Shown: in pieces, positions 10,729-58,639 of the stretch
Layout: each line of letters begins with the position of its first letter
Numbering within the stretch: position 1 is the first letter of the stretch
From: an uncultured Gammaproteobacteria bacterium
GTDB taxonomy: Bacteria > Pseudomonadota > Gammaproteobacteria > Arenicellales > JAANXG01
Reading direction: 5' to 3'
DNA length: 64,000 bases
Assembly (NCBI GenBank): GCA_947258975.1
Contig: CAMYKK010000006.1
Span: 1-64,000 of the forward strand
Notes under the pieces: generated by a model
Told to the model about the DNA's origin: nothing
Databases searched by the model: none
Seen by the model: only the letters and a program-made list of their open reading frames with translations
Translations under genes and position numbers: made by a program

Positions 10729-10825
10729 CTTATATTTTGATACTGTTTACCTTCGCGGTAATATCGCCGGTCTTTGGTGCCGACCGCAGCACCACACAGT
10801 CTTGCCTTTATGAGAGGATTTGCGC

Positions 10826-30280: not shown

Positions 30281-33200
30281 ACGCGGGCAGCGACTTCACC
30301 GGCAACGCAGCCTTCGTTCTCGAGTCCTATGCCGGCGCCTATGCGGATGATGCGGCCACTGCCCAGCAGTACCTCTACGCCGCCGGCGGCGGCATCGCCC
30401 ACGGTGATGGCGATACCGTCATCGATCACAGTAACTTCAAAAACAACGACGCTTACGTGCGCGATGTGAATGCCGCGGCGACTGCCTACGGTACATACGG
30501 GATAGCCTTAAGCGACGTGACCGCCGGCGCCTTCGGCGGCGGTCTGCAATCCGGTGACGGTGCGCTGACCGTGTATGGCGCCGCGCCGTACGCGTACAGT
30601 TTCTACGACAACAATGCCTACATCAATGCCATCGTCAACAACGCCCTTGGCTACGGCGCCAGCGCCGTCACTACGGCGGAGGCGGCCGGCGGCGGCATCG
30701 ACCACGGTGACGGCGCTACCTATTTCTACGGCCTCGACTTCAACGCCAACGACGCCTATATCTACGGCCTGACCAACTACGCCGACAGCAGCGGCTACGG
30801 GCCGCCCAACAACGCCGGTGCGGTGATCGACGCCTACGCCCATGGCGGCGGCGTGCACACCGGCGGCGGTGATCTGATCGTCGGTGCGTACTATGCGGCC
30901 GGTTACGACACGCGCTTCTACGACAATAACGCGGTCGTCAAGGCCTTGTATGCCAATGCCTATGATGCGGAGTATGGCGCCTACGCCGATGTCCATGCCG
31001 TTGCGGCCGGGGGCGGCATCGACCACAACAGCTACCGCTACACGCCCGGCGTGGGTCTTCCCTATGCCAAGTCCGGTCCGGCCGCCACGGTGACCATCGA
31101 CAATGCGGCGTTCTACAAGAATGACGTCTACGTCGGCGATCCCCTGGCCGCAGGCTACGACATCAAGTCTTATGCCAACAGCGTGTTCGGTTTGGCCTAC
31201 GCCGACGTGCATGCCCAGGCCCATGGCGGCGGCGCGCGAACTGGCGACGGCCCCTTGAACATCATCGATTCGACGTTCGGGTCCTACGGCGGCGGCGACG
31301 CCTACAGCAATAACGCGTTCGTCAACAAGGTCAAGGCGGATGCCTATTCTGCGTTTACTTATGCGTATGCGAGTGTGTTCGTGGACGCCGCGGGTGGCGG
31401 TATCGACCATGGCGACGGCGACGTCACCGTTGACGATAGCGAGTTCTATTACAACGAGGCCTATGTGGCGTATACCTACGCCCAGGCCGATACCTACGCC
31501 AGTGTGCAAAAGGCGTTGCTGGACAACAGTGCCAGCGGCGGCGGCATCAACAGCGGGGACGGGGTGCTCTACCTGTATCCGGCGACCTTCAAGTTCAATC
31601 AGGCCTATGTCTACGCCAGCACCGCGTATGCCTACACCTCTTATGGTTTCGATGCGACCGCCACGGTGAAGGCCGATGCCGCGGGCGGCGGGGTGAACCA
31701 CGGCGACGGCGCGGTGGGGGTATATGCCAGCGGCTTCAGCGACAACAACGCGTTCGTGGACCAGTCCCTGGCGTATGCTTACAGCTACTATGGCGCGGCC
31801 AACGCGTTGCTGTACGCCACCACCTATGGCGGCGGTGTTCATACCGGTCTGGACAATCCGTTGACGATCGGCAAGGCAGGCTACGGCAGCACCTTCGACG
31901 ACAACAATGCCTTCATCAAGGACCAGTGCGCCGACGCGGACAGCGAATACGGCGACGCCTACGCGCACGTGAACCTGTTGGCCGCCGGTGGCGGTGTCGA
32001 TCACAATTTTTACACCTATATGCCGGCGCCCGGCGTGTTCTATGCGAAGCCCGGCGCCGACGCGGCGGTGGTGATCGTGGACAGCACGTTCACCCGGAAC
32101 GATGCCTATGTGGGCGATCCGGCCGCGGGCGGTTACGACATCAAGGCGGATGCCTACAGCTACGATTACTCCGCTTACGCCTTCGTCGTGGCGGGCGCCG
32201 TCGGCGGCGGCGTGCACACCGCGGGTGGGACCCTGGATGTCATCGATTCGCTGTTCGGGTCCTACGCGGGCGGCGATGCCTACAGCAACAATGCCTCGGT
32301 CAACTACGTGTCGGCACTCAGTAACAGCTACTATGACGCGGGATCGGTGATTCTGAGCGGCGCTGGGGGCGGGGGCATCGATCACGCCGACGGCGACGTA
32401 AAAGTAGACGACAGCGAGTTTTACTACAACAGCGCCTACATCCGCTACACCTACGCCAGCTCCGAAACCTATGGCGCGTATTACGCGGCCTTTTCACTGG
32501 TGGGCAACTTCGCCAGCGGCGGAGGCATCGACACCGGCGACGGCGATCTGGCGGTGTACGATTACAGTTATTTCTACTTCAACGATGCGACCCTGGGAAA
32601 TGCGAAGGCCTATGCCTACGCCGACAACGCCAACTATGGTTACGCGGGCGCGACGGTGTTTGGCTATGCCGGCGGCGGCGGAATTAACCACGGTTACTCG
32701 GTTTACAATACGGTCACCATCGACGACAGTTATTTCAAGGGCAACCGCGCCTACGGCTACAACCAGTACAGCTTGGCGGACGCCTCCGATGGCGTGGGGG
32801 GTAATTACGGTGGTGCCGCCTATGCCGGGTTGAATGTCACCCTGTCGGGCGGCGGGATCGATACCAACGACGGCACGTTGTCGGTCGATGACGGCACATT
32901 CCGTTACAACGACGCTGAACTCGACGCCGGCGCCTATGCCAAGTCGTTTGCCGACGACGTCGCCAATGCCAGCACCAATCTGACGGTGACCGGCGGCGCG
33001 ATCGCCCACGGCGACGGCGATGTCGATGTCGATGCCGGCGATTTCTATTACAACGAAGCCTACGTGAACAGCGTCGGCGCTTACGCCTACACCTACGGCG
33101 TGATGGGTTACGCCTACGCTTACGGGAACGTCATCGCCTACGGCGGCGGGCTGTACACCGGTGACGGGGATCTCACGGTCACTGACAGCTATTTTGGATA

Positions 33201-36200
33201 TAACGACGCGGAGCTGGACAGGAGCCACGTCTACGCCTATGCCGACGATGACGACGGCGGTTACGCCACGGCGCTGGGCAATGTGTATGTAGCGGGTGGC
33301 GGTATCGATCACGGTAACACCGACTACAACACGGTCACCATCACCGGCAGCACTTTTACTTACAACGACGCCGATGCCAATAGTGTCTACTTGCGCGCCG
33401 ACGTCTACGGAAAGGGCTACACCGGCGGCACCGCCTACGCCCTGGGTTATGTCAGCATCGCTGGCGGCGGGTTGAATACCAATAACGGCAGCTTGTACGT
33501 CGGCAGCAGCGATTTTTTCGGCAATGACGCCGACCAGGATACCGACCATTACGTTTACGCCTTGGCCCATGCGGACGGCGATGCGCAAACCGTCGACGCC
33601 TATGCGGGTGTCGCCAGCAAGGTCGTCGGCGGCGGTATCGCCCACGGTGACGGCGAAGTCTACGTCTACAACAGCGATTTCTATTACAACGAGGCCTTCA
33701 TTGACGACGTCGGCGCGAAATCCTACACCTACGGCGCTATGGGTTATGCCGCTGCCACTGGGTTAGTCATCGCTTATGGCGGCGGGCTGTATACCGGCGA
33801 TGGGAATTTGTACGTCTACGGCAGCAATTTCTATGAAAACTATGCCGAGCTGGACGATAGCCACACCTACGCCTATGCCGATGATGCTAACGACGGTTAT
33901 GCCGTCGCGTCGAGCGGCGCCTACATCGCGGGCGGTGGCATCGACCACGGCAATACCCAATACAACACGGTCAGCATCCTCGAGAGCAGTTTCGAATCGA
34001 ACGCTGCGCAAGCTAATGCTGGGCATGTCGAGGCCGACGCCTATGGGGCGGGGTACACGGGCGGTACCGCCTATGCGCTGTTTGATTTCACCATCTCCGG
34101 TGGTGGGTTGAACACTACAGACGGCACGCTGTCTGTCAATGACAGCACATTCCGTGATAACGACGCCGAGAATGACGACGGTTTTTACGTGCGCGCCTAC
34201 GCCCATGCCGATGCGGATACGGCCACCACTGACGCCTACGCAGGCACCAAGAACCACATCACCGGCGGTGGCATCGCCCACGGGAATGGCGACGTCACTA
34301 TCGACGACGGTTACTTCTCAGGAAACAGGGCGGAACTCGACGACAACTACACCTACGCCTACACCTATGGCAAGACGGGTAGTGCCTATGCGAAGAATTC
34401 CGCCATGGTCTCCGGCGGCGGCCTGTATACCGGTGACGGGAATCTAACGATTCGCGGTGGCAGCTATTTCGGCGAGAACAATGCTGAGGCCGATGACAGC
34501 CATGTCCGGGCGTCCGCCGAGGTCGATGACGGTGACGCCAAGGCGGCGTTCATCGGTGAGACCGCCGGCGGCGGCGTTGCCCACGGGGTGGGTGATGTCA
34601 CCATCACCGACAGCAAGTTCTACAGCAACCAGACCTACATCGATAATCTCGATTACGTGACCGCCGACGCCTTTACCGGCGGGGTGGCCGGCGGCAACGC
34701 CTATGTGCTCGCCGATATGACCGCCCGCGGCGGTGGGCTCGCCACTGCCGGCGGCACGTTGTCCATCGCCGATAGCTATTTCAAATCTAACCAGGCCTAT
34801 GTCCGCGATTCCGACGGCCGATCCTACGGCTATGATGCGGCGACCTCGAATGTATACGTGTCCGTGTTGGGCGGCGGTGTGTTCCACGGCTACGGTGGAC
34901 TGTCGATTGCCGGCAGCTATTTCTATTACAACGACGCGTATGTAGAGTATATCGACACCCGGGCGCATATCTATGGTGACGAGAATACCGCTTACGCCAG
35001 CGGCGTGATTGGCGTCTACGGGGGCGGCGTGTACACCGGCGACTCCGTGGCGACGGTGACCGGCAGCAATTTCAAATACAACGACGCCTACGCGCAAAAG
35101 GTTGATGTAAACGCCTACGCCGAGTATGCCGACGACGCCTATGCCAAGGCGGTGTTGACGGCAGATGCCGGCGGCGGCGCGATCGACCACGGCAACACCG
35201 GCGGCACGCTCACCGTCGGCGGCGGTTACTTTTACTCTAACGACGCGTACATCCTGGATGTTTACGTCCACGCCGATGCCTATAACGCCGGCTACACAGG
35301 CGGCACGGCGGCGGCCAAGGCCGACCTCACCGCCACCGGCGGTGCGCTGAACAGCAACTACGGCACCCTGGGGGTCACCGATTCCGTTTTTAAATACAAC
35401 CGCAGCTTGGTCGGTTACTTGGTCCCCATCGACCTGGACGCCATAGCCGACGGTGATGCCAAGGCGACGCTCTATGCCGAGGCCCAGGGCGGCGCCATCG
35501 GTTTGCACGATGGGAGCGGCTCGGTATCCGGCAGCACCTTCGCTCACAACAAGTCTTACGTGAATGCCGACAACGACATTACCTATGCCTACTCCGCTAG
35601 CGGTTATGCCACCGCCGATGCCGTCGGTTACGCCCAGGGCGGGGCGATCGGTATCGAAGATTCGGCTCTGTCCATCGGTGGATCGACATTCACCTACAAC
35701 GTGGTGAAGAGCTATGTGAAGAGCTATGCCAAAGGCGCCTCGGGCGGGTATGCGGATGCCGCCAGCCGCGGCGAGGGCGGCGCGTTGTTCGCCGAGGGCA
35801 CCGGCGGCTTCGGTGTGAGCCTGAGCACCTTTACCTACAATCGCGTCGGCGGGTACGCCTACAGCAAAGGCAGCACGACCTCCACCGCCACCGGCATCGG
35901 CGCCGGCGGCGCGGTGTTCAACTCTGCCGCAGCTTCCACGGTGACCACCAGCGGCCTCTATGACAACAGCGCCTACGGCGGTGCTACCGCCAAAGGTATG
36001 GGGACCAACACCGCCATCGGCAAGGGACTGGGCGGCGCGGTCGGCAATGACGGCTACCTGACGGTTACCCGCAGTACGCTCGCCTACAACGCAGCCTACG
36101 GCGGCTACAGTTACGTAGCCGGAGGCGCGCTGAGCGCCGGCGGATTTGGCGGCGGCGCGGCCAACGAGACCGGCGGCATGCTGACCCTGCGCAACTCCAC

Positions 36201-37308
36201 CATCTATGCCAACACCGTGGGCGCCACAACCGGTGCGGCGCTGGGCGGCGGGGTCGCCAATGTGGGCGGGATCACGTATTTGTTGCACGATACGGTGTCG
36301 TATAACACCATGTATGCGGCGTACAACGGTGGTGGGACATTCTTCGTTGCCAACACCATTCTCGCCAACAGCGTCGGCAGCGACGATGCCTTGGGTACGT
36401 TCTCTGCCGGTGGTATCAACCTGGTAGAGAGTCCCGGTGGCAGCGCCGGCTTCGGGGGACCGGACATCCTCGGCGATGATCCGTTACTTGCACCGTTGGC
36501 GTTCAACGGCGGGCCGACCAAGACCCTAGCACTGCTTGCCGGCAGCCCGGCGATCGACACCGCGCTGCCGGGTCTGGCGCTCATCGATCAGCGGGGCTTC
36601 CCGCGTCCGATCGGCAACGGTTACGACATCGGCGCCTACGAGTCACCGTTCGCGCGATCGGGACCGCCGCCAACACCGGGACCGCCGCCAACACCGGGAC
36701 CGTACATTCCACCGCCGGTCATTGTGCCGCCACCACCGGTTCCGGAGTATCCGGCCTCGCAGTTCATACCGGAGACGCCGTTCTTGCAGTTACCGCGGCC
36801 GCTCACGGATCTGATTCCGTTCCTGCCGCGGTTCCTGACGCTGTCGCTGTACCGGGATCCCGCGTCGTTGCTGGAGTTCGAGTTGCGCTTCCTCGGTTCT
36901 GATGTGGAGTTCGATATCAACTGTGTGATGCAGTGGGTGCTCGATCCGGATCGGCTTAAGGAATGCCTGGACGTCAGCATGCTGATGCCGGAAACCGGCG
37001 GCCCGTCCATGGCGCCGGGGCCCGCTACGGATGACGGTATCCAGCATGCCGACATGGTGCCGACGGACGAGGAGAATCCTGAGACGGTGCTCACACCGGC
37101 GTCGGCGGATGAGATTACCGACGTGGTGATACCGGGACCCGCGGAACCGGTGGGTATGCCGGTAGACAGCGCCCTGTTGCACGCGATTGACTCGCTGGAT
37201 GAGGGGCGGATGTCCACGGCGGTGGGATTGAGCGCGCAGCTGCAGGATGCGGATGGATTCGAGCGCGAGCAACTGGCGTTGCTGTCGGCTGCGGAAGGGA
37301 TTAATTAG
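27754..37308 (+). CDS. Giant LEPR/DUF4347 beta-helix repeat surface protein, part after frameshift
   Basis: This is the continuation, about 3,184 residues in the same frame as the first part. The codon at 27754 is only where the frame re-opens and is not a credible start. The remaining 770-bp units run to about 30.25 kb. They are followed by about 6 kb of shorter units of roughly 65-70 residues, patterned GGGIDHGDGDVTVDDSEF then YNxAYV and an Ala/Tyr/Asp strand. The end has a choice-of-anchor-like block (LAGSPAIDTA, DQRGFPRP, DIGAYE at about 36535-36640) and a proline hinge (PPPTPGPPPTPG). The non-repetitive C-terminal domain of about 190 residues contains the only close cysteine pair (INCVMQW and KECLDV). 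That C-terminal region is a candidate export or anchoring signal. If the frameshifts are not real, the whole protein would be about 7,830 residues. Confidence 0.85.
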   Translation: MDQGSAPAAAGLSLVSSPITNNQAYVYNVYGAATSGIGFKGAGYGLATANVLQDTKAYGGGVRTPAASLVIGAKYGSAATGYFYGGSAFSGNRAHIGSAYYLAGGVSGVATGYSADVTGTALAAGGGVDQSGTTTASILSSPFTYNYAYVFDVYGGAFSAYGDGAGKPYPGSVASVDLTTGAAGGGVRTAANDVSVGALYGDPVYGYGYFGSPFSYNQAFVGSIYARRAGGGVYGTALGYDADVTETTYAYGGGLDQGKAPTASSLSLVASPFTYNSAYVYSVYGAATSDTGYAGKGYGSATANVVQDTRAYGGGVRTPAEMLVIGAKYGTAATKYFYAGSAFTGNQAFIGSAVRYAGGVSGTAVGYSADVTGTALAAGGGVEQSGTTTASILSSPFTFNDAYVYNVYGAAFSAYSYGAGLVYAASVASVDLTTGAIGGGVRTAANAVTVGALYGDPVYGYGYFGSPFRYNRAFVGGTSYFGAGGVYGTALGYDADVTETTYAYGGGLDQDKAPAATSLSIVSSPFSNNLTYVTSVYGAATSGIGLGGAGYPLATANVLQDTRAYGGGVRTPAESLMIGAKYGTAATGYLYGGSSIFSFNRAFIGSIGKYFGGTGVSGTATGYGADVTGTALAAGGGVDQSGTTSLAAIGSAFYNNYAYVYDVYGGAFSAYGDGAGKSYPGSVALVDLTTGAAGGGVRTAANDVTVGVLYGDPVYGYGYFGSPFSYNEAFVGSTYYLAGGVYGTAVGYDADVTETTYAYGGGLDQSTAPAAASLSLIASSFTYNFAYVYNVGGTATSGAGNGYNGDTADVTQTSRAYGGGVNTPALTLTVGKVFGTLATGYYYAGSDFTGNAAFVLESYAGAYADDAATAQQYLYAAGGGIAHGDGDTVIDHSNFKNNDAYVRDVNAAATAYGTYGIALSDVTAGAFGGGLQSGDGALTVYGAAPYAYSFYDNNAYINAIVNNALGYGASAVTTAEAAGGGIDHGDGATYFYGLDFNANDAYIYGLTNYADSSGYGPPNNAGAVIDAYAHGGGVHTGGGDLIVGAYYAAGYDTRFYDNNAVVKALYANAYDAEYGAYADVHAVAAGGGIDHNSYRYTPGVGLPYAKSGPAATVTIDNAAFYKNDVYVGDPLAAGYDIKSYANSVFGLAYADVHAQAHGGGARTGDGPLNIIDSTFGSYGGGDAYSNNAFVNKVKADAYSAFTYAYASVFVDAAGGGIDHGDGDVTVDDSEFYYNEAYVAYTYAQADTYASVQKALLDNSASGGGINSGDGVLYLYPATFKFNQAYVYASTAYAYTSYGFDATATVKADAAGGGVNHGDGAVGVYASGFSDNNAFVDQSLAYAYSYYGAANALLYATTYGGGVHTGLDNPLTIGKAGYGSTFDDNNAFIKDQCADADSEYGDAYAHVNLLAAGGGVDHNFYTYMPAPGVFYAKPGADAAVVIVDSTFTRNDAYVGDPAAGGYDIKADAYSYDYSAYAFVVAGAVGGGVHTAGGTLDVIDSLFGSYAGGDAYSNNASVNYVSALSNSYYDAGSVILSGAGGGGIDHADGDVKVDDSEFYYNSAYIRYTYASSETYGAYYAAFSLVGNFASGGGIDTGDGDLAVYDYSYFYFNDATLGNAKAYAYADNANYGYAGATVFGYAGGGGINHGYSVYNTVTIDDSYFKGNRAYGYNQYSLADASDGVGGNYGGAAYAGLNVTLSGGGIDTNDGTLSVDDGTFRYNDAELDAGAYAKSFADDVANASTNLTVTGGAIAHGDGDVDVDAGDFYYNEAYVNSVGAYAYTYGVMGYAYAYGNVIAYGGGLYTGDGDLTVTDSYFGYNDAELDRSHVYAYADDDDGGYATALGNVYVAGGGIDHGNTDYNTVTITGSTFTYNDADANSVYLRADVYGKGYTGGTAYALGYVSIAGGGLNTNNGSLYVGSSDFFGNDADQDTDHYVYALAHADGDAQTVDAYAGVASKVVGGGIAHGDGEVYVYNSDFYYNEAFIDDVGAKSYTYGAMGYAAATGLVIAYGGGLYTGDGNLYVYGSNFYENYAELDDSHTYAYADDANDGYAVASSGAYIAGGGIDHGNTQYNTVSILESSFESNAAQANAGHVEADAYGAGYTGGTAYALFDFTISGGGLNTTDGTLSVNDSTFRDNDAENDDGFYVRAYAHADADTATTDAYAGTKNHITGGGIAHGNGDVTIDDGYFSGNRAELDDNYTYAYTYGKTGSAYAKNSAMVSGGGLYTGDGNLTIRGGSYFGENNAEADDSHVRASAEVDDGDAKAAFIGETAGGGVAHGVGDVTITDSKFYSNQTYIDNLDYVTADAFTGGVAGGNAYVLADMTARGGGLATAGGTLSIADSYFKSNQAYVRDSDGRSYGYDAATSNVYVSVLGGGVFHGYGGLSIAGSYFYYNDAYVEYIDTRAHIYGDENTAYASGVIGVYGGGVYTGDSVATVTGSNFKYNDAYAQKVDVNAYAEYADDAYAKAVLTADAGGGAIDHGNTGGTLTVGGGYFYSNDAYILDVYVHADAYNAGYTGGTAAAKADLTATGGALNSNYGTLGVTDSVFKYNRSLVGYLVPIDLDAIADGDAKATLYAEAQGGAIGLHDGSGSVSGSTFAHNKSYVNADNDITYAYSASGYATADAVGYAQGGAIGIEDSALSIGGSTFTYNVVKSYVKSYAKGASGGYADAASRGEGGALFAEGTGGFGVSLSTFTYNRVGGYAYSKGSTTSTATGIGAGGAVFNSAAASTVTTSGLYDNSAYGGATAKGMGTNTAIGKGLGGAVGNDGYLTVTRSTLAYNAAYGGYSYVAGGALSAGGFGGGAANETGGMLTLRNSTIYANTVGATTGAALGGGVANVGGITYLLHDTVSYNTMYAAYNGGGTFFVANTILANSVGSDDALGTFSAGGINLVESPGGSAGFGGPDILGDDPLLAPLAFNGGPTKTLALLAGSPAIDTALPGLALIDQRGFPRPIGNGYDIGAYESPFARSGPPPTPGPPPTPGPYIPPPVIVPPPPVPEYPASQFIPETPFLQLPRPLTDLIPFLPRFLTLSLYRDPASLLEFELRFLGSDVEFDINCVMQWVLDPDRLKECLDVSMLMPETGGPSMAPGPATDDGIQHADMVPTDEENPETVLTPASADEITDVVIPGPAEPVGMPVDSALLHAIDSLDEGRMSTAVGLSAQLQDADGFEREQLALLSAAEGIN

Positions 37309-37348: not shown

Positions 37349-37378
37349 TTTTTGGGAGTGGCTTGTAGCCGCGATGCC
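37349..37378. repeat. REP-like palindrome after the giant gene
   Basis: TTTGGGAGTGGC-ttgta-GCCGCGATG, the same family as the copies near 13.77 and 41.69 kb, lies in the 141-base gap between the giant gene and the first TolC gene. One stem base differs (GTGGC against GCCGC). Confidence 0.75.
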
Positions 37379-37449: not shown

Positions 37450-39951
37450 ATGATCAAACAACATTTACGCAAGTCATTGGTCTGTATCGCGACTGCGGGC
37501 TTAGTGTCTGGTTGCGCCATCAACCCGAAACCGGTCACTCCGGAAGATCGCGTGGCGCGCGCTGCCGCGGACCTCGAGGCCCTGTTTGCGGGTCAGGAGG
37601 CGGTGACCGGTGGCATCACCCTGGCCGAGGCGATGGCTCGGGCGATCAAGTACAACCTCGATCACCGCGTCAAGCTGATGGAGGAAGCGGTGACCCAAGC
37701 CGAGGCGAAAGTCGCGCGCATGGACATGCTGCCTGACCTTGCCGTATCGGCGGGTTATTCCACACGCAGTAACGTGCCGGCGTCGAGCAGCCAGTCGGTG
37801 ATCACCGGCCTGGAGTCCCTGGAGCCTTCTACGTCACAGGAGCGTACGCGACAACTTGCCGACGCCACTATGGTCTGGAACATCCTGGACTTTGGGGTCA
37901 GCTATGTCACCGCCAAGCAACGCGCGGACCGTACTCTGATCGCCTCAGAAAAGCGGCGCAAGGCGATCCAGAACATTATTCAAGACGTACGGGTGGCGTA
38001 TTGGCAGGCGTTGAGCGCCGCACGCTTGGCATCCGAAACCGACGAATTACTCATACTCACCCGGTCCGCCCTCGACCGCTCGCGCCAGCTACAGGAGCAG
38101 GGTCTGCAGCCGCCGCTGGCGGCGATGCAGTATCAGGAGGGCCTGCTGTCGACGCTGCGCTCGCTGCTGCAGCTGCGTCAGCAATTGTCCACCGCGCGCA
38201 CCGAACTCGCGAGCTTGATGAACATCCGTCCGGGCGATGAATTTCAACTCACACCGTCCGCTGCCGAAGTGGAGGCGCCGGAAGTGAACACCGAGCTGGC
38301 GGAACTCGAGGATTTCGGCTTGCTGCACCGCCCGGAACTCATCGAGGAGGACCTGCGGGTGCGCATCGCCAGCGCCGATGTCAAGAAGGCGATGCTGCGC
38401 ATGTTGCCCGGGTTGGAGATCGATTTTGGTGCCCACTACGACAGCAACAAATTCCTGGTCAACAACGAGTGGTCCAATGCCGGCGTGCGGATCGGTTGGA
38501 ACCTGTTCAACCTGATCGGAGGTCCGGCGCAACAAAAGCGCGCCGAGGCGCAGCTCGATGTCGATAAGACCCGGCGGCTGGCGACCAGCATGGCGGTGTT
38601 GACCCAAGTCAACGTCGGTTACCAACGGTACCTGTTGTCGCAAAAGGACTTCGAGTTGGCGAACGTGTTACAACAGGTGAAGGATGACATCGCTCAGGAA
38701 GAACGTACCCGGCGCCAGGTGGCGGTGTCAGACGAGTTTACCGAGATCCGGGCGCGTCTCGACGCGCTGGTCGCAAAACTCCAGCGGGATCAAGCGTTGG
38801 CGGAACTGCAAAACTCGGTGGGCCGTATTCACAACTCGATCGGTCTCGACCCCTTGCCGCCGGAAGTGAGCGGTTACGATATTGCCACCTTGGCGACGGC
38901 GATCGAAAACCATCAGACAACTTTGAAGGACATGCTGGTGCAGCCGCAAATGGATCCGGATGCCTACGACCGCATCGCGGCGGTGGTCAAGTACGAGCGA
39001 GCGGTTAACGACAAACAGGCGGCGGAGGTTGCGGTGGCCGAAGCCGAGGAGATGCGCGCGGAACGCGAGCAGCTCGCAGCTGCGGCGCGAGAGGAAGCCT
39101 TAGCAGTGCAACGCCTGGCGATTGAGGCGGCGTTACTGGAGGCGGATGGCAACCGGGCAGCCGAATTGCGAGCCATGGAGGAGGCGGCGCGGTTGGCCGA
39201 AGAACAGGCCGCGGCGCAAGCGGCGCGGGAGGCGGCGGAGATGGCGGCGGCGCAAGCGGCCGCTGCCCAGGAGCGCGCGGAAGCGGCGCAACGCGCCGTG
39301 GCAGAAGCGCAGCGCGTCACTGAAGAAGCTGCCGCGCAACGCGCGGCGGAGGCAGAGCGTCTCGCGGCCGAGGTGCAGGCCAGGATCGACGCCGCGGTCG
39401 AGGCTGCAGTGGTGGCGGGCGCGGCGCAGAACCAGATGGACGAAGCCGCACAGGCGGCGCGGGAAGCCAAGGAACGGGCCGACAGCATCAAGGTTCCAGA
39501 GGCGCCCGAGGGCGCCTCGCAGTCATCGGGTTCGGAGCAAAAGCAATCCAAGCGGCTCGAGAGTATTGAGATGCGTAATGACCCCGCGGCGCTGGCTGAG
39601 CAATCCGCAGACACCGAATCAGCCCGCGAATCCGCGGTGTCCGCTGATCCCGCAATGCCGCGGCGATCAGGCGCGGCTGCATCTTGGGCCGATCCGGCGC
39701 CGCCGATCCGGCAACAGGTTATGCCTGCTACGTTCGTGATCGGGTTGGAACACCCCGAGTTCTACGCGCGGATGACGATGCCAAACGTCTTGATGAAGCG
39801 CTTTATCTTGGATGCGAAGCTATCTCGATTTGATCCGGGTATGTCGACGCCACGACCCGCCCCGGAATCCGATCTCAAAGAGTTGACCCCGCCGGCACCG
39901 TTGTCGTTTGTGGATAAAGATCCGTTTACCGGCGAGCCGCTTATCAAATAG
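37450..39951 (+). CDS. TolC-family outer-membrane lipoprotein with long C-terminal coiled coil
   Basis: Outer-membrane channel component of a tripartite exporter. It has 833 residues, against about 450-500 for usual TolC proteins. A lipobox LVSGC (Cys 22) marks it as a lipoprotein. The TolC domain (about 50-500) shows the LAEAMARAIKYNLDHRVKLME opening helix, the WNILDFGVSY strand and the paired repeats typical of OEP proteins. An Ala/Glu-rich predicted coiled coil (about 515-680) follows, then a Ser/Pro-rich tail ending near PFTGEPLIK. That extension is absent from the paralogue downstream. It follows the giant gene by 141 bases, which suggests dedicated export of that protein. Confidence 0.87.
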   Translation: MIKQHLRKSLVCIATAGLVSGCAINPKPVTPEDRVARAAADLEALFAGQEAVTGGITLAEAMARAIKYNLDHRVKLMEEAVTQAEAKVARMDMLPDLAVSAGYSTRSNVPASSSQSVITGLESLEPSTSQERTRQLADATMVWNILDFGVSYVTAKQRADRTLIASEKRRKAIQNIIQDVRVAYWQALSAARLASETDELLILTRSALDRSRQLQEQGLQPPLAAMQYQEGLLSTLRSLLQLRQQLSTARTELASLMNIRPGDEFQLTPSAAEVEAPEVNTELAELEDFGLLHRPELIEEDLRVRIASADVKKAMLRMLPGLEIDFGAHYDSNKFLVNNEWSNAGVRIGWNLFNLIGGPAQQKRAEAQLDVDKTRRLATSMAVLTQVNVGYQRYLLSQKDFELANVLQQVKDDIAQEERTRRQVAVSDEFTEIRARLDALVAKLQRDQALAELQNSVGRIHNSIGLDPLPPEVSGYDIATLATAIENHQTTLKDMLVQPQMDPDAYDRIAAVVKYERAVNDKQAAEVAVAEAEEMRAEREQLAAAAREEALAVQRLAIEAALLEADGNRAAELRAMEEAARLAEEQAAAQAAREAAEMAAAQAAAAQERAEAAQRAVAEAQRVTEEAAAQRAAEAERLAAEVQARIDAAVEAAVVAGAAQNQMDEAAQAAREAKERADSIKVPEAPEGASQSSGSEQKQSKRLESIEMRNDPAALAEQSADTESARESAVSADPAMPRRSGAAASWADPAPPIRQQVMPATFVIGLEHPEFYARMTMPNVLMKRFILDAKLSRFDPGMSTPRPAPESDLKELTPPAPLSFVDKDPFTGEPLIK

Positions 39952-39965
39952 CCGGGAGAGAGAAG

Positions 39966-41630
39966 ATGCGTTATATGTCAGGCGGTATTGTCGCTCTTAC
40001 GGCTGTCAGTATCGTGCTCATCGGCTGCGCGACACCACCGGTGGAAGTCAGCGAGGACGAACGCCGCACGAAGGCGCAAGAATTGCAGGCATTGTTTGAT
40101 GAGCAGGAACCCATCACCCAGCCGCTGACCGTCGCCGATGCCATGGCGCGTGCCATCAAATACAACGTGGATCACCGCGTACGGCTGATGGAGCAGGTGC
40201 TCGCGCGCACCGACCTGGATGTGTCGCGCATGGACCTGCTGCCGCGGCTGGTCGCGGACGCGGGCTATTCCGAGCGCAGTAATGAGAACGCGTCCAGCAG
40301 TGAATCGGTAATTACCGGCCGCCAGAGCCTGGAGCCGTCGCGCTCCACCGAACGCGAGCAGGGTGTGGTCAATGCATCCCTGGTCTGGAACCTGCTCGAT
40401 TTCGGCGTCAGTTACGTGAGCGCGAAACAACGCGCCGATCACGTGTTGATCGCTGAGCAACGGCGGCGCAAGGCGATTCAGAACATTCTTCAAGACGTTC
40501 GCCGCGCCTATTGGCAGGCGCTGTACGCGCAACGCCTGGGTGGCGATCTCGATCAGCTGATTATTGATGTCGAGTCCGCTTTAGAGAAGTCCCGGGAATT
40601 GCGGGAGCAAGGCCTGCAGCCGCCCTCCCTTGCGGCACGGTTTCAGGATGCCCTGCTCACTACAATGCGCCAGCTATGGCGGATCCGAAGAGATCTTGAA
40701 ACCTCCCACACCGAGTTGGCACAACTGATCAATGTGTCCCCCGGCACCGAGTTTGAACTCGATCCAACGCCGGATGAAATGGGCCTGCCGATGGTGGATG
40801 AAACCCCGGTGGAACTCGAGCAGCGTGCGTTGACCGATCGTCCCGAGTTGCGGGAGGAGGATTACCAGTTGCGCATCGATCAGGCGGAAGTCAAAAAGGC
40901 CATGCTGCGCATGCTGCCGGGTCTCGAGATCGATCTGGGGGTCCACTACGACAGCAACGATTTTCTGGTTAACAACGATTGGTCCGATGCCGGTCTACAG
41001 ATCAGTTGGAATTTGTTCAATGTGTTTTCGGGACCCGCATTCAGCGATCAGGCAAAAGCACGGGTGGATCTGGACAATGTACGCCGGCTGGCGATCTCGA
41101 TGGCGGTGCTGACCCAAGTGCACGTTGCATTTGAAAATTTCCGGGATGCCAAGATCAACTATGAACTCGCCAACGAATTGATGGCGGTGAGCACGCAGAT
41201 TTTGAATCAGTATGAGGCGCAACAACGGGCCGAGGCGGCGACCGAGTTCGCGAACATTCGCTCACGCGCCCGGGCCTTGGTGGCGCAGTTGCAACGCGAA
41301 AAGGCGTTCGCCCAGGTTCAGAATGCGATCGGCCGTATTCATAACTCCATTGGCATGGATCCGATGCCGGAGACGACTGCCAGTTATGACCTGCCGACAT
41401 TGGCCACCGCGATTACCGAGCGCCAGATGCAGTTGAACCGGGCGCTGCAGCGGACGACCCGACCCGCCGACGCCGAGCACCCGCAAGATGTCGAATCTCA
41501 GCCGCTGACCACCGGTAAGGACGCGGTCATTGAATATCAACCAACTCCGGCCACCCTGGAGTCGATCATCGACTTGCAACCGATCACCACCGAAATTCAT
41601 CGGTCTGCATACCAGCAGCAAGGGCTCTAG
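39966..41630 (+). CDS. Second TolC-family outer-membrane lipoprotein
   Basis: A 554-residue paralogue of the preceding gene without its coiled-coil tail. It has a signal peptide with a lipobox ending IGC (about Cys 21). The opening VADAMARAIKYNVDHRVRLME, the VWNLLDFGVSYVSAKQRADH block, MLRMLPGLEIDLGVHYDSN and the GRIHNSIGMDPMP block are nearly the same as in the first copy. The pair therefore arose by tandem duplication. It lies 14 bases after the first gene with GGGAGAGAAG before the ATG. The channel may be a heterotrimer, or the two could serve different adaptors. Confidence 0.87.
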   Translation: MRYMSGGIVALTAVSIVLIGCATPPVEVSEDERRTKAQELQALFDEQEPITQPLTVADAMARAIKYNVDHRVRLMEQVLARTDLDVSRMDLLPRLVADAGYSERSNENASSSESVITGRQSLEPSRSTEREQGVVNASLVWNLLDFGVSYVSAKQRADHVLIAEQRRRKAIQNILQDVRRAYWQALYAQRLGGDLDQLIIDVESALEKSRELREQGLQPPSLAARFQDALLTTMRQLWRIRRDLETSHTELAQLINVSPGTEFELDPTPDEMGLPMVDETPVELEQRALTDRPELREEDYQLRIDQAEVKKAMLRMLPGLEIDLGVHYDSNDFLVNNDWSDAGLQISWNLFNVFSGPAFSDQAKARVDLDNVRRLAISMAVLTQVHVAFENFRDAKINYELANELMAVSTQILNQYEAQQRAEAATEFANIRSRARALVAQLQREKAFAQVQNAIGRIHNSIGMDPMPETTASYDLPTLATAITERQMQLNRALQRTTRPADAEHPQDVESQPLTTGKDAVIEYQPTPATLESIIDLQPITTEIHRSAYQQQGL

Positions 41631-41685: not shown

Positions 41686-41920
41686 TGGTGGGAGCGGCTT
41701 TGAGCCGCGAAGCAATTGTCGCACCTGCAAGGTGCTCCCACAGGAGACAATAGAAGGAATCGCGCCTGGCTTATCTCCGCCTTGCCCCCGCACGGCAGGA
41801 GAGACAGCCGCTTTATTGCCTTTCTGCGAAAAACCCTTTCTGTAAGTGCGCCTTCCTGTGGGAGCGGCTTTCCCCTGCTGTGCGGGGACAAGTCCCCCGC
41901 TGTGCGGGGACAAGTCCTGC
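41686..41920. repeat. REP pair and short 22-bp hairpin array
   Basis: Two head-to-head REPs (GTGGGAGCGGC-tttga-GCCGCG and GCACC-tgca-AGGTGCTCCCAC, 41688-41742) are followed by another partial REP at about 41857. Two units of the same 22-bp hairpin repeat found at 10.4 and 13.0 kb run from 41873 to 41918. These fill the 335-base gap between the second TolC gene and the adaptor gene. No gene is seen in the rest of it. Confidence 0.8.
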
Positions 41921-41965
41921 GATTAGCCTTACAATGTGGGCAACCATGGCTCGCGCATTAACCCA

Positions 41966-42751
41966 GTGAATACAAGTTGCTCACAACCCATCTGCGCTTG
42001 GTTGTTACCAGTGCTATGCGGCATGACGCTAACGGCCGCGGCCCAGCAGTCCGGACTGGGGGTTGAGCAACCCGGTGCCGCGCCCAATCAGCGCGAGATA
42101 CGCGCGCTTTTGGTCGCCCGCACCGAGTCCGTGCTGTCCAGTCAGATCACCGGACGCATCGTCAAGATCACGGTGAAGCATGGCGCGCGATTCGAGAAAG
42201 GCCAATCGCTCGTCCAGTTCGACTGCGCGGTTGCCCGTGCCGAAATGTCCAAGGCCCGCGCCGAGCACGATGCGGCCAGAAAGACTCACGAGTCGAACCT
42301 CCAATTACAGAAACACCGTGCCGTGGGCAAGCTGGAAGAGGAGATCTCGCAGGCGCGGTTACAGAAGGCCAAGGCGGATATTTCCCGCAATCAAGCGTTC
42401 ATGCGCATGTGTAACATCAAAGCGCCGTTTGCGGGCCGGGTGGTCAAGATTCACGTCAATCCCTACGAGACCGTTACCCAGGGGCAACCGGTGATTGAGG
42501 TGTTGGACGACAGCCGCTTCAAGATGCAAATCAACGTGCCGTCTAACTGGCTGGGCTGGTTGCAGCCGGGCACTGAATTTATGGTCACCATCGATGAGAC
42601 CGGACGCGAATATCCCGCCGCCGTGACCGACTTGGGGGCGCGGGTAGACCCGGTGAGTCAGACGCTGGAAGTTGAAGCGCAGATCAGCGGTACTCACAAA
42701 GAATTGATCGCGGGCATGAGCGGAGTTGCGCGGTTTTCCGTCCCGCGATGA
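41966..42751 (+). CDS. Periplasmic adaptor (HlyD/RND membrane-fusion) protein
   Basis: A membrane-fusion protein that would bridge the inner-membrane component to the TolC channel. It has about 261 residues from GTG 41966, which puts a hydrophobic signal (ICAWLLPVLCGMTLTAAA) at the N-terminus. An earlier GTG at 41936 is possible but adds a poor leader, and neither has a clear ribosome site. The biotinyl-lipoyl half-motifs are SQITGRIVKITVKHGARFEKGQ and IKAPFAGRVVKIHVNPYE, separated by a short helical hairpin (KTHESNLQLQKH region). A beta-barrel domain follows. The stop overlaps the start of the next gene (ATGA). Confidence 0.85.
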   Translation: MNTSCSQPICAWLLPVLCGMTLTAAAQQSGLGVEQPGAAPNQREIRALLVARTESVLSSQITGRIVKITVKHGARFEKGQSLVQFDCAVARAEMSKARAEHDAARKTHESNLQLQKHRAVGKLEEEISQARLQKAKADISRNQAFMRMCNIKAPFAGRVVKIHVNPYETVTQGQPVIEVLDDSRFKMQINVPSNWLGWLQPGTEFMVTIDETGREYPAAVTDLGARVDPVSQTLEVEAQISGTHKELIAGMSGVARFSVPR

Positions 42752-44109
42752 CCGAGGCACCTATCGATTCGCGCGCAGTACGCCTCAGCGCTCTGCTGCA
42801 GCTCGAACAGGAGGCACGGCAAGCCGCGACTCCGACCGAACTTGGTTTTGTCATCGTCAACGAGACCCACCGATTGATTCCCTATCAACGCGCCGTGCTG
42901 TGGCGAATGACCGGAGCCGGCCGTGTGTCTGTCGAGGCGGTATCGGGACTGGCAGAGGTCGAACGCCACTCTCCCTACCTGGTGTGGGTGCGCAAGGTCG
43001 TCAAGACGCTGTGCACCGCTGAGGAATCTCACGCCTGCCGCATCGTGGAAAGCGAACAACTGCCCGACCAGTTGCGGCCAGGCTGGTCGGAATGGTGTCC
43101 TGGACCGGCGGTGTGGTGTCCCTTCGTCGGCAGAAACGGGGGCATCGTGGGTGGTTTCTGGTTGGTTCGTGAACCGCACTGGGAACCCGGTGAAATCACC
43201 TTACTCGAGCGTGTTACCGACGCCTACGGTCATGCCTGGGACGCGCTCGACGCGCGCCGCGCATCTACATTCCGTGGACGGTGGTTCGAGCGTTTCCCTG
43301 GTCGTGGCGTAAAGCTCGCGATTCTGGCCGGCGCCGTCGGCAGTTTGTTTATTCCGGTGCGGTTATCGGTGCTCGCGCCCGCCGATGTGATTCCGGTGCA
43401 GCCGGTCATCGTGAGCTCACCCATCGAAGGGGTGATTCAGACCATTCCGGTGCGTCCCAATCAGCCGGTGGAGCAGGGCGACTTGTTGTTCAGCCTCGAT
43501 GACGCGGCGTTGTCGAGCCGTCATGAGGTCGCACAAAAGGCGTTGGCAGTGGCCGAAGCGGATTATCTGCGCGCCGTGCAGAAGGCCTTTAATGATGCCG
43601 CCAGCAAGGCCGAGGCAGCCATGCGCAAGGCGGTCGTGGAGGAGAAAACCGCGGAGGTGGCATATACACAACGTTTGTTGGAGCGCGTTGCAGTGCGGGC
43701 GCCGCGAGCGGGAATTGCAGTGTTCGGCGACCCAAACGATTGGATCGGCAAGCCGGTTGCGGTCGGTGAGAAGGTCATGACAGTCGCCGACCCGGGGCGC
43801 ACCGAAGCCCAGGCTTGGGTGCCCGTGGGAGACGCCATCAACCTGGAGCCCGGCGCAGAAATGCGGCTCTTCCTGAACACCGATCCGACCCGGCCGCTCG
43901 CGGCGCGTATCTACGAGTCCAGTTACGAGGCCAAGAAGAACGCCGCCGGCCTGCTCGCGTTTCACGTCAAGGCCCGTTTCGAGGAGGGTCAGCAGGCGCC
44001 CCGAATCGGCCTGAAAGGAACCGCCAAGATCTACGGTGAGACCGTCCGCTTGGGTTATTATTTGTTGCGCCGGCCGATCGCCGCGGGCCGGCAGTTCTTC
44101 GGACTGTGA
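42748..44109 (+). CDS. GAF-like domain fused to an HlyD-type adaptor
   Basis: A 453-residue membrane-anchored adaptor. Residues 1 to about 170 form a GAF-like sensory or regulatory domain (TPTELGFVIVNETHRLIPYQRAVLW and VWCPFVGRNGGIVGGFWLV). One membrane helix follows near 190-205 (LAILAGAVGSLFIPV). The biotinyl-lipoyl motif (VSSPIEGVIQTIPVRPNQPVEQGD), an alpha-helical hairpin and the second lipoyl half (VAVRAPRAGIAVFGDPNDWIG) come after it. The order puts GAF in the cytoplasm and the adaptor in the periplasm. The coupling to the previous gene is translational (4-base overlap), and the next gene starts 7 bases after its stop. Confidence 0.82.
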   Translation: MTEAPIDSRAVRLSALLQLEQEARQAATPTELGFVIVNETHRLIPYQRAVLWRMTGAGRVSVEAVSGLAEVERHSPYLVWVRKVVKTLCTAEESHACRIVESEQLPDQLRPGWSEWCPGPAVWCPFVGRNGGIVGGFWLVREPHWEPGEITLLERVTDAYGHAWDALDARRASTFRGRWFERFPGRGVKLAILAGAVGSLFIPVRLSVLAPADVIPVQPVIVSSPIEGVIQTIPVRPNQPVEQGDLLFSLDDAALSSRHEVAQKALAVAEADYLRAVQKAFNDAASKAEAAMRKAVVEEKTAEVAYTQRLLERVAVRAPRAGIAVFGDPNDWIGKPVAVGEKVMTVADPGRTEAQAWVPVGDAINLEPGAEMRLFLNTDPTRPLAARIYESSYEAKKNAAGLLAFHVKARFEEGQQAPRIGLKGTAKIYGETVRLGYYLLRRPIAAGRQFFGL

Positions 44110-44116
44110 GTAGTCG

Positions 44117-46273
44117 ATGAGTACGATCGCGGAAAGTATTTCGGAATCAGCGGTCCCACAGGCGCCGCCCGTGGTCGCGCCGCTACGTGATGATCTCAAT
44201 CTCTACCCCGGCGGACGCACCAGCGAAGGTGCGGCGACCTGGACGCTTCACGATCCAGTGCGTAATCGATATTTCAAGCTCGGTTGGCTCGAGTTTGAAC
44301 TGCTCAGGCGCTGGAAGTTCGGTCACGTGGCCACCATCACCGAGGGGGTGAACCGGGAAACGCCGCTGCACGCGGACGAACATGCTGTACGACGGCTGGA
44401 GGCGTTTCTCGACCAAAATCAGCTTCTACAGCGACTTACTCCGATGGCGACGCGCAAATTGTTGCAGCTGCGCGAACGCATTCGCAAACAAAAACGGCGT
44501 GTCCGCTTGCAACAATTGATGTTTTTCCGCATGCCGCTCTTCCGCCCCGACCGGTTTCTATCGACGACGCTTCCCTATATCCGTTTCGTCTACACCCGGG
44601 GATTCGCCGTATCTATTACTGTGATCGCCGTCATCGGCCTGGTCCTTGTAAGCCAGCAGTGGGCGTCGTTTACAAACTCATTTTCTTATCTGTTTTCCTT
44701 CGAGGGCATGATCCTGTTCGGTATTGCGATCACGATCACCAAGGCGGTGCACGAACTGGGACATGCCTACACAGCCAAATTCCTGGGACTCAAGGTGCCT
44801 ACCATCGGATTGGCGCTGCTGATTTTCTGGCCGGTGCTGTACACAGACACCACCGACTCGTGGCGTTTACGCAGCTCCCGGCAGCGGTTGAACATCGGTA
44901 TTGCGGGGGTCGTCGCTGAGCTGATACTCGCCGCCCTCGCAACTTTGTTGTGGAGCTTTCTGCCTGATGGCCCGTTGCGCAGCACCGTGTTCTTTGTTGC
45001 CACCGTGTCCTGGGTATTGACGCTGTTGGTTAATCTCAATCCATTTCTCAGATGGGACGGTTATTATGTATTGTCGGACCTTTGGGGGGTGGAGAACCTG
45101 CAACAGCGCTCGTTCGCTCTGGCAAGGTGGTGGTTGCGGCGCACCCTATGGGCCTTGGAGGACCCGCCGCCGGAGCGGTTTTCAGTTCGTCAGCGGCGGC
45201 TGCTCATTCTGTATGCGTTTGCGACCTGGGCCTATCGTTTTTTGCTGTTCGCAAGCATCGGGGTCCTGATGTACGAGTTCGCCTTCAAGATCGTCGGCAT
45301 TGCCTTGCTCGGGATGTTGTTAACAGCTTTTATCCTGCGCCCGGTCTCGGGGGAGTTGCGTATCTGGTGGCGCCGCCGGGCTGACATCGGCGCGGTTCGC
45401 AGATCGATGGTATTGATTCTATTTTTTGGCGGCTTGAGCGCCATATTGTTGGTGCCATGGAGCCGTACCATAGATGTGCCGGCCCTCATGCGTCCCCACC
45501 AACACACGTCGCTGTTTGCGCCGGTACCGGCGCGCGTCGCGGCGGTGCAGGCCGAAGACAAGCAGAAGGTGGTGGCCGGAGATGTCTTGTTCCGACTCGA
45601 AAGTCCGGCTCTGTATCATGAACAACAACAGGTAGGCTTGCGCATCGAGATGCTTCGTTCGCAGATTGCGCGGCAAAGTGCGCATGATCTGATGCTCGAG
45701 CGGCAACAGGTGTTGGAGCAGCAACTTTCCGCAGCCTTGGCGCAGCACCGGGGCAACGCGCAGCAGCTCGCGCGGCTGACCATCCGCGCCCCGTTTGACG
45801 GCACGGTGGTGGATATCGCCGGCCATCTGGAACCGGGGCGGTGGATCCGCGATAATTTACAACTGGGAGTGATCATCGACACCGGTGCCTACGAAGTTGT
45901 TGCCTATGTCAGCGAGACGGATCTTGCCCGCGTCGAGCCTGGGGTCGTGGGGAAGTTCTACGCCGACGATACCGAGCACCCGTCGGTCGCGCTGAGGGTA
46001 GTGGAAGTTGACCAGGCCAACATCCGGGTCCTCGACGAGCCCTACAGCGCCTCCGTCTATGGCGGCCGCGTAGGCGTCCAGCAGGGCCCCGGCGGTGAGT
46101 TGAACACAATCGAATCCTTGTACCGGTTGCGTTTGAAACCGGAGGGCGCGATGGCAGTTCAGCCGCCGCGGACCTTGCGCGGACAGGTGCGGCTGCGTGT
46201 CGCGTCGCGCAGTCTGATGGATCGGCTGTGGCGGTTGGTCGGTGCCGTACTCATCCGGGAAAGTGGTTTCTGA
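44117..46273 (+). CDS. Site-2-protease-like (M50) membrane protein with PqqD-like N-terminus and C-terminal HlyD domain
   Basis: A 718-residue inner-membrane protein of three parts. Residues about 25-125 form a PqqD-like winged helix (NRYFKLGWLEFELLRRW). Residues about 150-440 form a polytopic peptidase M50 domain with zinc motif H212-E-L-G-H216 and the second metal site NLNPFLRWDG (D314). Residues about 465-690 form a periplasmic lipoyl/HlyD domain (SLFAPVPARVAAVQAEDKQK and LTIRAPFDGTVVDIAG). All zinc ligands are present, so proteolysis is possible. The gene occupies the place of the inner-membrane exporter in a type I-like operon that has no ABC ATPase. It might process or pull the giant protein. 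This architecture occurs in other export loci, but I know no proven mechanism. Confidence 0.82.
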   Translation: MSTIAESISESAVPQAPPVVAPLRDDLNLYPGGRTSEGAATWTLHDPVRNRYFKLGWLEFELLRRWKFGHVATITEGVNRETPLHADEHAVRRLEAFLDQNQLLQRLTPMATRKLLQLRERIRKQKRRVRLQQLMFFRMPLFRPDRFLSTTLPYIRFVYTRGFAVSITVIAVIGLVLVSQQWASFTNSFSYLFSFEGMILFGIAITITKAVHELGHAYTAKFLGLKVPTIGLALLIFWPVLYTDTTDSWRLRSSRQRLNIGIAGVVAELILAALATLLWSFLPDGPLRSTVFFVATVSWVLTLLVNLNPFLRWDGYYVLSDLWGVENLQQRSFALARWWLRRTLWALEDPPPERFSVRQRRLLILYAFATWAYRFLLFASIGVLMYEFAFKIVGIALLGMLLTAFILRPVSGELRIWWRRRADIGAVRRSMVLILFFGGLSAILLVPWSRTIDVPALMRPHQHTSLFAPVPARVAAVQAEDKQKVVAGDVLFRLESPALYHEQQQVGLRIEMLRSQIARQSAHDLMLERQQVLEQQLSAALAQHRGNAQQLARLTIRAPFDGTVVDIAGHLEPGRWIRDNLQLGVIIDTGAYEVVAYVSETDLARVEPGVVGKFYADDTEHPSVALRVVEVDQANIRVLDEPYSASVYGGRVGVQQGPGGELNTIESLYRLRLKPEGAMAVQPPRTLRGQVRLRVASRSLMDRLWRLVGAVLIRESGF

Positions 46274-46292: not shown

Positions 46293-46811
46293 ATGAGCGG
46301 CATCAAGCAAATTTTCGTCAACTACGTCCCCGCCCAGGACCGCATTCTGGTGCGTGTCAGCACCACCGACGACACCGAGATGCGTATGTGGTTGACCCGC
46401 CGGTTCGTCACCATCCTGTGGCCGGTGATGTTGCAGATGCTCGAGTCCGATCCCAGTGTCGTTGGGCAAGCGAATACCCAGACCAAGCAAGAAGTGCTTT
46501 CATTCCGCCACGAGGAGGCGATTAGCAAGACCCGCTTCACCAAGAGTTATCAGAGTCCGCCACAGGTCAAGCAGGTCAATCAGGTGCCGTTCCTGATCAC
46601 GAAGCTCAGCACCAAGCGATTGGATAACGGCCGCACGCAAATGATATTCGGTACCGCTAAAGGCCGCAGTGTGCAGTTCGTTGTGGATCGCACACTCACG
46701 CATTCGTTGTGTAAACTGATCGCCGACTGCACGAAAAAAGCGACCTGGGGTCTCGATGTGGAAATTACCAAGTCCTCGGCGGTAGCGTCGGGCGACCGCA
46801 CCATCAACTAG
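46293..46811 (+). CDS. Unknown conserved-looking cytoplasmic protein in the export operon
   Basis: I do not recognise a family. The protein has 172 residues, no signal peptide and no membrane segment. The N-terminal part (FVNYVPAQDRILVRVSTTDDTEMRMWLTRR) reads like a small beta-sheet domain followed by an amphipathic helix (FVTILWPVMLQMLES). The middle is rich in Gln/Lys, and the C-terminal half is a beta-rich segment with one helix (LTHSLCKLIADCTKK). GAGGAG at 46278-46283 is well spaced for ATG 46293. It lies 19 bases after the M50-HlyD gene and before a secreted unknown, so it is probably an accessory or chaperone of the export system. Confidence 0.7.
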   Translation: MSGIKQIFVNYVPAQDRILVRVSTTDDTEMRMWLTRRFVTILWPVMLQMLESDPSVVGQANTQTKQEVLSFRHEEAISKTRFTKSYQSPPQVKQVNQVPFLITKLSTKRLDNGRTQMIFGTAKGRSVQFVVDRTLTHSLCKLIADCTKKATWGLDVEITKSSAVASGDRTIN

Positions 46812-46825
46812 CCCGGATCCGGCAT

Positions 46826-47338
46826 ATGCGTTGGACGATGTTTGCGCTTGTATTGCTGCTCCACCAAGGCGCAGCCGCGGCCGCGGAGCGGATCCAGATT
46901 GTGCTGCCGTTTCACGACGTGGCGTTGATACCGGGTCATGTCGTGCGTCTCAAGGCCGAGACCATGCGTATTCATCCGGATTTTGATTTCAGCAGCGTCG
47001 ACCTCGATTCGGTCGACATCGTGGCCAAGTCACGTATGGGCCAGGGCCACATTGCGCTCCGGGTAGGCAACCAATACTCCGAGCGCAAGCCGATCCCCGG
47101 TCGCAAGCCGGACTACGACGATCCCGCGGCAGCGTCTTTTCACAGCGTATCGATCCGGCACCACGGCGCCTCGAGCAACGGTTTGTGGCAACTGCTGGTG
47201 GTTGGGTACATCAAGATCAGACGTGTGGTGTTGCACATGCGGCCGCGAAACGAGGACGTCTTGTCGCGGCGCGCCGTTACGTTCGCAGCAGCGCCGGCAC
47301 GCGTGCCGCAAGACACCGGGAGCAATATGACTCGGTGA
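46826..47338 (+). CDS. Unknown secreted protein in the export operon
   Basis: I do not recognise a family. A 170-residue precursor with a signal peptide (MRWTMFALVLLLHQGAAAAA, cleaved near residue 21). The mature part is beta-rich (IQIVLPFHDVALIPGHVVRLKAET, then SVDIVAKSRMGQGHIALRVGN). Its RLK/IRRVVLHMRP segments suggest a compact beta-sandwich. No cysteines and no lipobox are present. The stop codon overlaps the start of the sulfatase gene (TGATG), so the two are translated together. It may be a periplasmic helper of the secreted giant protein. Confidence 0.68.
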   Translation: MRWTMFALVLLLHQGAAAAAERIQIVLPFHDVALIPGHVVRLKAETMRIHPDFDFSSVDLDSVDIVAKSRMGQGHIALRVGNQYSERKPIPGRKPDYDDPAAASFHSVSIRHHGASSNGLWQLLVVGYIKIRRVVLHMRPRNEDVLSRRAVTFAAAPARVPQDTGSNMTR

Positions 47339-58441: not shown

Positions 58442-58639
58442 AATTCAGGGGACAGTATACGCAGTTAGACCCGCGCCCGGGCGCGGGGTTGCGTGTGCAC
58501 AGATCCCGTCCGAGTCGTAATTCGGTATTGTGTCCTCGGACTTCATTCGCGGCCAAAGGCCGCTCCCACAACATACTGTGTACTTCCGCTGCATCGGAAT
58601 TCGAAGGACAGAATTCGGGGACAGCATACGCAATTTGAC
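58442..58639. repeat. Two direct repeats of a GGGGACAG-type element, with a REP between
   Basis: AATTCaGGGGACAGtATACGC at 58442 recurs as AATTCGGGGACAGcATACGC at 58612, in the same orientation, 170 bases apart. Between them is a REP-like palindrome GCGGCCAAAGGCCGCTCCCAC at about 58550-58571. Elements of the GGGGACAG(T/C)ATAC kind are often dispersed in gammaproteobacteria. No transposase is linked here except the IS91 remnant. Confidence 0.7.

Follow-up and report, generated by a model that had tools for sequence, protein, structure and literature searches.

In the 64,000-nucleotide stretch of gammaproteobacterial DNA analysed here (the window), a leader-reading protease appears to be fused to its own periplasmic adaptor, beside TolC genes and the gene of a giant protein with an N-terminal LEPR motif and with no ABC transporter gene in the locus, which partly supports the original prediction for this protein. 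The domain architecture of the fusion, its conserved zinc residues, the surrounding gene set, the co-occurrence with LEPR giants and the lack of a linked ABC or SecA gene in its clade were all directly observed. We lean, with moderate confidence for the three steps taken jointly, towards a route in which an RRE domain would bind the leader of the giant protein, a site-2 protease (S2P) domain would cut it, and three adaptors together with TolC would export the chain. That the housekeeping SecA moves this chain over the inner membrane is a separate proposal, held tentatively as a possibility that stops short of probable.

Domain architecture of the M50-HlyD fusion

The fusion protein and its parts map to the following positions:

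44117..46273, + strand: M50-HlyD fusion, 718 aa, comprising RRE, seven-helix site-2 protease and periplasmic adaptor
44168..44491, + strand: predicted N-terminal RRE/PqqD-like leader-binding domain, residues 18-125
44549..45451, + strand: M50/S2P membrane domain, residues 145-445, seven membrane-size helices, N-terminus in and HlyD out
44750..44764, + strand: HELGH zinc motif, residues 212-216 (H212, E213, H216)
45056..45058, + strand: third zinc ligand, D314 (NLNPFLRWDGY)
45452..46270, + strand: HlyD/MacA-like periplasmic adaptor domain, residues 446-718, with the clade-conserved C-terminus RESGF

Starting with the ATG at 44117, the reading frame stays open for 718 aa until the stop at 46273, and two Pfam families were found above their cut-offs, M50 (E = 3.7e-9) and HlyD_3 (E = 3.1e-13). 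In an AlphaFold model of the whole fusion (mean pLDDT 82.4), a beta-beta-beta-alpha-alpha-alpha N-terminal domain is predicted to be followed by seven membrane-size helices and then by the adaptor. This odd helix count would place the basic N-terminal domain in the cytosol and the HlyD adaptor in the periplasm. Among 369 genomes of the class, 63 were matched by a profile of the fusion, some through partial or adaptor-only hits, and such recurrence argues against a chance fusion. Pfam, conservation and fold matches thus confirmed the claimed union of a winged helix, a zinc protease and a lipoyl adaptor. The C-terminal RESGF (46256-46270) is kept across most of the window's clade and not in the SecA-bearing branch described below, and is a possible docking tag.

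Because a fold search with the whole model returned adaptor matches only, the N-terminal domain was folded and searched separately. Modelled alone (pLDDT 89.7), it is predicted to adopt the three-strand, three-helix winged fold of leader-binding domains, and its top matches among solved structures were RREs, namely the lasso-peptide B1 protein with bound leader (6jx3, Z 10.6), TbiB1 with leader (5v1u/5v1v, Z about 10) and PqqD (5sxy, Z 8.8), and most of the matches ranked after these were further RiPP enzymes that carry an RRE. The description of this region as a PqqD-like winged helix was therefore right. At the level of sequence profiles the link was weaker: Pfam PqqD matched the N-terminal domains of 5 of 23 relatives (best E = 5.9e-6) and gave no match to the window's own, and a profile comparison with PqqD 3g2b gave E = 0.31.

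In the membrane domain, H212, E213 and H216 are retained by 78 of the 79 homologues and D314 by every one of them, and the zinc residues were also invariant in a first set of 23 members, which bears out the complete zinc site read earlier from the sequence. The lone exception (locus L115) has its own HEDLH located elsewhere and is probably a misalignment. An HExxH motif and a distal Asp within a membrane domain assign the protein to peptidase family M50, its proteolytic activity being predicted. The fusion matched the daptide protease model NF041824 over residues 87-405 (E = 7e-49) with 166.9 bits, below the 300-bit equivalog cut-off, and all 23 relatives matched the same model. By sequence, the M50 domain is thus homologous to the RiPP-leader metalloproteases of daptides and of epipeptides (YydH/LiaK), with scores below cut-off for both; RseP and MJ0392 were matched weakly in a profile search.

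The adaptor domain matches the structures of MacA, EmrA and MexA (Z about 13-16), and the elements of an HlyD/MFP adaptor, that is, a barrel-sandwich lipoyl domain, a hairpin and a beta-barrel, were all found in the fusion. Together with the HlyD_3 match, these structures substantiate the periplasmic lipoyl domain.

The operon and its presumed cargo

Upstream of the fusion, in order, lie the giant gene, two tandem TolC genes and two HlyD genes, the second being of GAF-HlyD type:

13819..37308, + strand: giant surface protein gene, presumed cargo, with DUF4347 near the N-terminus and then repeats
13918..13944, + strand: leader motif LEPRYMFDG, with cleavage predicted at the F/D junction, after nucleotide 13938
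37450..39951, + strand: TolC-family outer membrane factor, copy 1, with a long C-terminal extension
39966..41630, + strand: TolC-family outer membrane factor, copy 2
41936..42751, + strand: third adaptor, HlyD/RND-MFP type, above the RND_mfp cut-off
42748..44109, + strand: second adaptor, one membrane helix, GAF-HlyD type
46293..46811, + strand: 172-aa protein, family unknown; a counterpart occurs only next to the locus of the closest relative, and it is unlikely to be core
46826..47338, + strand: 170-aa protein of unknown family, found in close relatives only; probably not core

No Pfam match to GAF was obtained for the window's second adaptor, the domain being detected in relatives' copies. 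The two TolC genes form a tandem duplication (blocks of 70-78% DNA identity at a spacing of 2510), whereas most relatives have one TolC, and the C-terminal extension of copy 1 is rich in Ala and Glu.

The giant is listed as two open reading frames (13786-27447 and 27754-37308) that share a frame, and between them its repeats run on in frame +1. A single gene of some 7,800 codons is thus the probable reading, its frame interrupted by a pair of compensating frameshifts within 27200-27760 that are probably an assembly error. Its start is most likely the ATG at 13819; the listed GTG start at 13786 comes directly after a copy of a REP-like palindrome, GTGGGAGCGGCTTNNAGCCGCGATT, which occurs at 13760-13784, 37352-37376, 41688-41712 and 58545-58569 (0 expected by chance). 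Copies of this palindrome closely flank the giant gene on both sides, and another lies within the operon. Upstream of the giant, 10820-12952 encodes a protein with collagen-like repeats, TPRs and a sulfotransferase domain.

At its N-terminus the giant has a basic stretch followed by ALEPRYMFDGAAVITV and, after that, DUF4347. A plain LEPR occurs near the start of 25 reading frames around the cassette, and 24 of the 25 continue as xxx[SDA][AG]. More broadly, the motif [LMV]E.R.xx[SDA][AGD] was found within the first 120 residues of 34 of 1029 reading frames of at least 200 aa around the cassette, versus 0.22 by shuffling, an excess that is partly by construction since the expression was shaped on the same loci. 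Against the LEPR-XLL profile NF012209, the LEPRYMFDG variant scored 12.4, under the 17-bit cut-off. A hydropathy scan of the substrate leaders, that of the giant included, did not reveal the hydrophobic core of a classical Sec signal peptide: the median of the best 12-residue window was 1.38 in the substrates, versus 2.37 in TolC and 2.22 in HlyD controls (p = 2.5e-10). Leaders lacking this core count against a plain SecA/SecYEG route and would also make an intramembrane cut unusual.

Proposed route of export

The daptide protease likewise joins an RRE to an S2P domain, and cleavage of daptides takes place after ELE-x5 (PMC10036551, PMC12338566). With a likeness between ELE and LEPR that is short, we predict that the giant is cut in ALEPRYMF/DGA at the F/D bond, immediately ahead of the conserved [SD][AG]. 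Fold and homology suggest a first step in which the cytosolic RRE of the fusion would bind the basic, LEPR-containing N-terminal leader. By analogy with the daptide protease, the membrane S2P domain would then cut just after LEPRYMF, leaving a mature N-terminus that begins DGAAV. Since three different adaptors are encoded in one operon, HlyD, GAF-HlyD and M50-HlyD may form a mixed ring that docks TolC, through which the chain would leave. The RRE fold, the homology to NF041824 and the conserved LEPR-xxx-[SD][AG] of neighbouring giants thus strengthen the idea that the protein would read and cut a leader.

M50/S2P enzymes such as RseP function in signalling, and the protease might accordingly serve regulation or quality control, cutting another membrane protein when export stalls rather than the giant itself. 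The weak RseP-like profile match and the GAF domain in the partner adaptor of relatives fit such a role. We nevertheless give it little credence, as the N-terminal fold is that of an RRE, the closest relatives are RiPP leader proteases, the fusion co-occurs with LEPR leaders, and no sigma or anti-sigma gene is annotated in the plasmid cassettes described below.

Relatives and plasmid copies of the cassette

About 80 neighbourhoods were read, and the same set of TolC, HlyD, GAF-HlyD and M50-HlyD recurred in them beside a large protein, giving a conserved cassette of giant protein, TolC, HlyD, second HlyD and M50-HlyD. The tree of M50-HlyD proteins has two branches, and the type of the cargo motif, D (window) or S, changes once on it. 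The window, which stands in the tree as the 79%-identical locus L032, belongs to a clade of 34 rows (support 100) with the cargo motif LEPRxMFD[AG]. No linked ABC exporter was found in this clade, and no linked SecA in any of its rows: 27 of the 34 clearly have none, and the remaining 7 are on contigs too short to judge.

In the sister branch, whose cargo motif is of the LEPRxLLSAD type, a gene for a SecA-type ATPase adjoins that of the M50-HlyD protein (30 of 78 tree rows); its product has SecA_DEAD, preprotein-binding and P-loop domains. This linkage is not universal, the gene being absent at 8 S-type loci, and five of those genomes have a single SecA. A copy of the SecA branch is also present in the window's own source genome, on contig C21, where its only secondary SecA lies beside another M50-HlyD gene. 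Locus L047 (11712-13637) encodes a degenerate SecA-like protein beside M50-HlyD that is without the expected Walker A sequence and gave no match to a P-loop or preprotein domain.

Copies of the cassette were found in 64 plasmid records, among them 18 from Escherichia, 13 from Azospirillum and 8 from Citrobacter. It is a five-gene unit on the E. coli and Kosakonia plasmids and has six genes in Azospirillum, which encodes the DUF4347 protein apart from the giant. The substrate leaders read RFALESRQLFDGA in E. coli and LLAWSLEPRMLFDGA and FAMALEPRFMFDAA in the Kosakonia and Azospirillum cassettes, respectively; the annotated cargo of a Magnetospirillum plasmid copy lacks the LEPR motif. No motor gene was found in the three full contexts from E. 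coli, Kosakonia and Azospirillum plasmids, and for a cassette to function in hosts this diverse, its motor would have to be one that all of them possess, or it would need none. The IncHI1B E. coli plasmid NZ_CP060066.1 (locus L121) carries its copy in a region of insertion sequences, with lac and fec genes close by. Near the Pseudomonas and Kosakonia cassettes, a sulfotransferase-like reading frame (by eye) and tail-fibre-like proteins were noted (L010 12798-14036, L010 15055-15693, L122 16119-18226), and a tail-fibre gene is annotated near an Azospirillum copy too.

Energy source for export

The fusion had been said to occupy the place of the ABC transporter of a type I system, and this held: the operon has no ABC gene, and TolC and the giant with its LEPR motif adjoin the fusion. 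A partner encoded elsewhere was looked for among ABC families. Canonical type I ABC families were above cut-off in 3 of 16 genomes with the window-type clade; the source genome had none over cut-off, nor did 12 of the 15 others, so that an unlinked canonical type I ABC was rejected as a requirement (lacking in 13 of 16). MsbA-type, non-T1SS ABC exporters are present in every one of the 16 and could serve as partners. An unlinked general ABC or RND exporter might pair with the adaptors, the M50 domain then solely maturing the cargo, and both these MsbA-type proteins and the resemblance of the adaptor domain to MacA, EmrA and MexA suit that arrangement; the scarcity of canonical type I ABCs, missing from the source genome as well, and the five-gene plasmid cassettes without such an ABC make it quite improbable. 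Two further sets of ABC-like reading frames were set aside as partners: the two directly downstream in L110/L111 read, by eye from sequence, as Uup-type ABC-F proteins, and those in L038, L060, L099, L100, L102 and L112, at distances of kilobases, were treated as neighbours with no connection to the cassette. An unlinked secondary SecA was likewise rejected, since 19 clade genomes have the housekeeping SecA only.

The locus thus encodes no motor, in keeping with the puzzle raised from the beginning over the energy source; the sister branch encodes a SecA-type ATPase beside the same fusion. For this reason SecA is our best guess for the motor: in the last step of the route, the housekeeping SecA would most likely move the chain, perhaps aided by folding outside the cell.

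Alternatively, the M50-HlyD membrane domain and its partners might themselves form an inner-membrane passage that works without SecYEG or a dedicated ATPase, driven by the push of the ribosome, by proton motive force or by folding outside the cell. To our knowledge, no S2P protease of known structure is a protein channel, and the retention of a SecA-type ATPase in the sister branch suggests that a motor is useful, both of which weigh against this passage. The conserved set nevertheless holds no ATPase, 19 genomes have a single housekeeping SecA, the leader is unlike a Sec signal, and a seven-helix domain is fused to the adaptor; moreover, the M50 domain has been proposed as a pore (Kamneva et al. 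2015, PMC4452313). We judge a motor-free passage unlikely. A distinct trans-envelope pathway, in which an RRE would recognise the LEPR leader of proteins thousands of residues long, an adaptor-fused S2P would license export by cutting, and the cargo would leave by TolC without an ABC or dedicated ATPase, the M50 domain being part of the passage, is also unlikely in our estimate.

Relation to known systems

The fusion is not unique, as a related SecA-bearing module was already described by Kamneva et al. in 2015 (PMC4452313). That HlyD/M50/GAF module is the nearest known system and has in common with the window clustered M50-HlyD, GAF-HlyD and HlyD genes, sometimes TolC, and no ABC; in contrast, its linked secondary SecA_DEAD protein is absent from the window's locus and clade. 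Its authors noted the missing ABC, suggested SecA as the ATPase and left the role of the module open, naming no substrate, and the main text is without LEPR, DUF4347 or PqqD (PMC4452313). Like the fusion, the daptide leader protease (MpaP/DapP, NF041824) has an RRE followed by an M50 membrane domain and serves a short leader motif (ELE-x5 versus xLEPRxxx), but it has no adaptor domain, a small peptide cargo and no TolC. The epipeptide metalloprotease YydH/LiaK (EpeP, NF058609) is also an M50 membrane protease and is believed to cleave its own peptide as well as export it (PMC10885120); unlike the window's protein, which scores below cut-off against NF058609, it is Gram-positive, has no RRE-HlyD fusion and handles a small peptide. 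Type I secretion (HlyB-HlyD-TolC, LapBCE) resembles the window in setting periplasmic adaptors and a TolC-family channel beside a giant repetitive protein, whereas the window has no ABC transporter, a conserved motif that is N-terminal, three adaptors and a protease fused to one of them. Proteins with the LEPR-XLL domain (NF012209) share with the window's giant this N-terminal motif family and a very large, repetitive build.

Literature searches on LEPR-XLL, DUF4347 and RREs with HlyD returned no functional paper and no role for the LEPR-XLL motif; subscription papers and preprints lay mostly outside these searches, and earlier work may exist. Relative to the literature searched, the present analysis adds the SecA-less clade, the RRE, LEPR giants as the likely cargo and a predicted cut site. 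It would give LEPR-XLL a proposed function, as the leader for an RRE-protease, and the SecA/HlyD/M50 module a proposed class of substrates, lacking since 2015. The leader recognition of small RiPPs would thereby extend to giant surface proteins, and with a motor-less clade present on E. coli plasmids, the power source of this export becomes directly testable.
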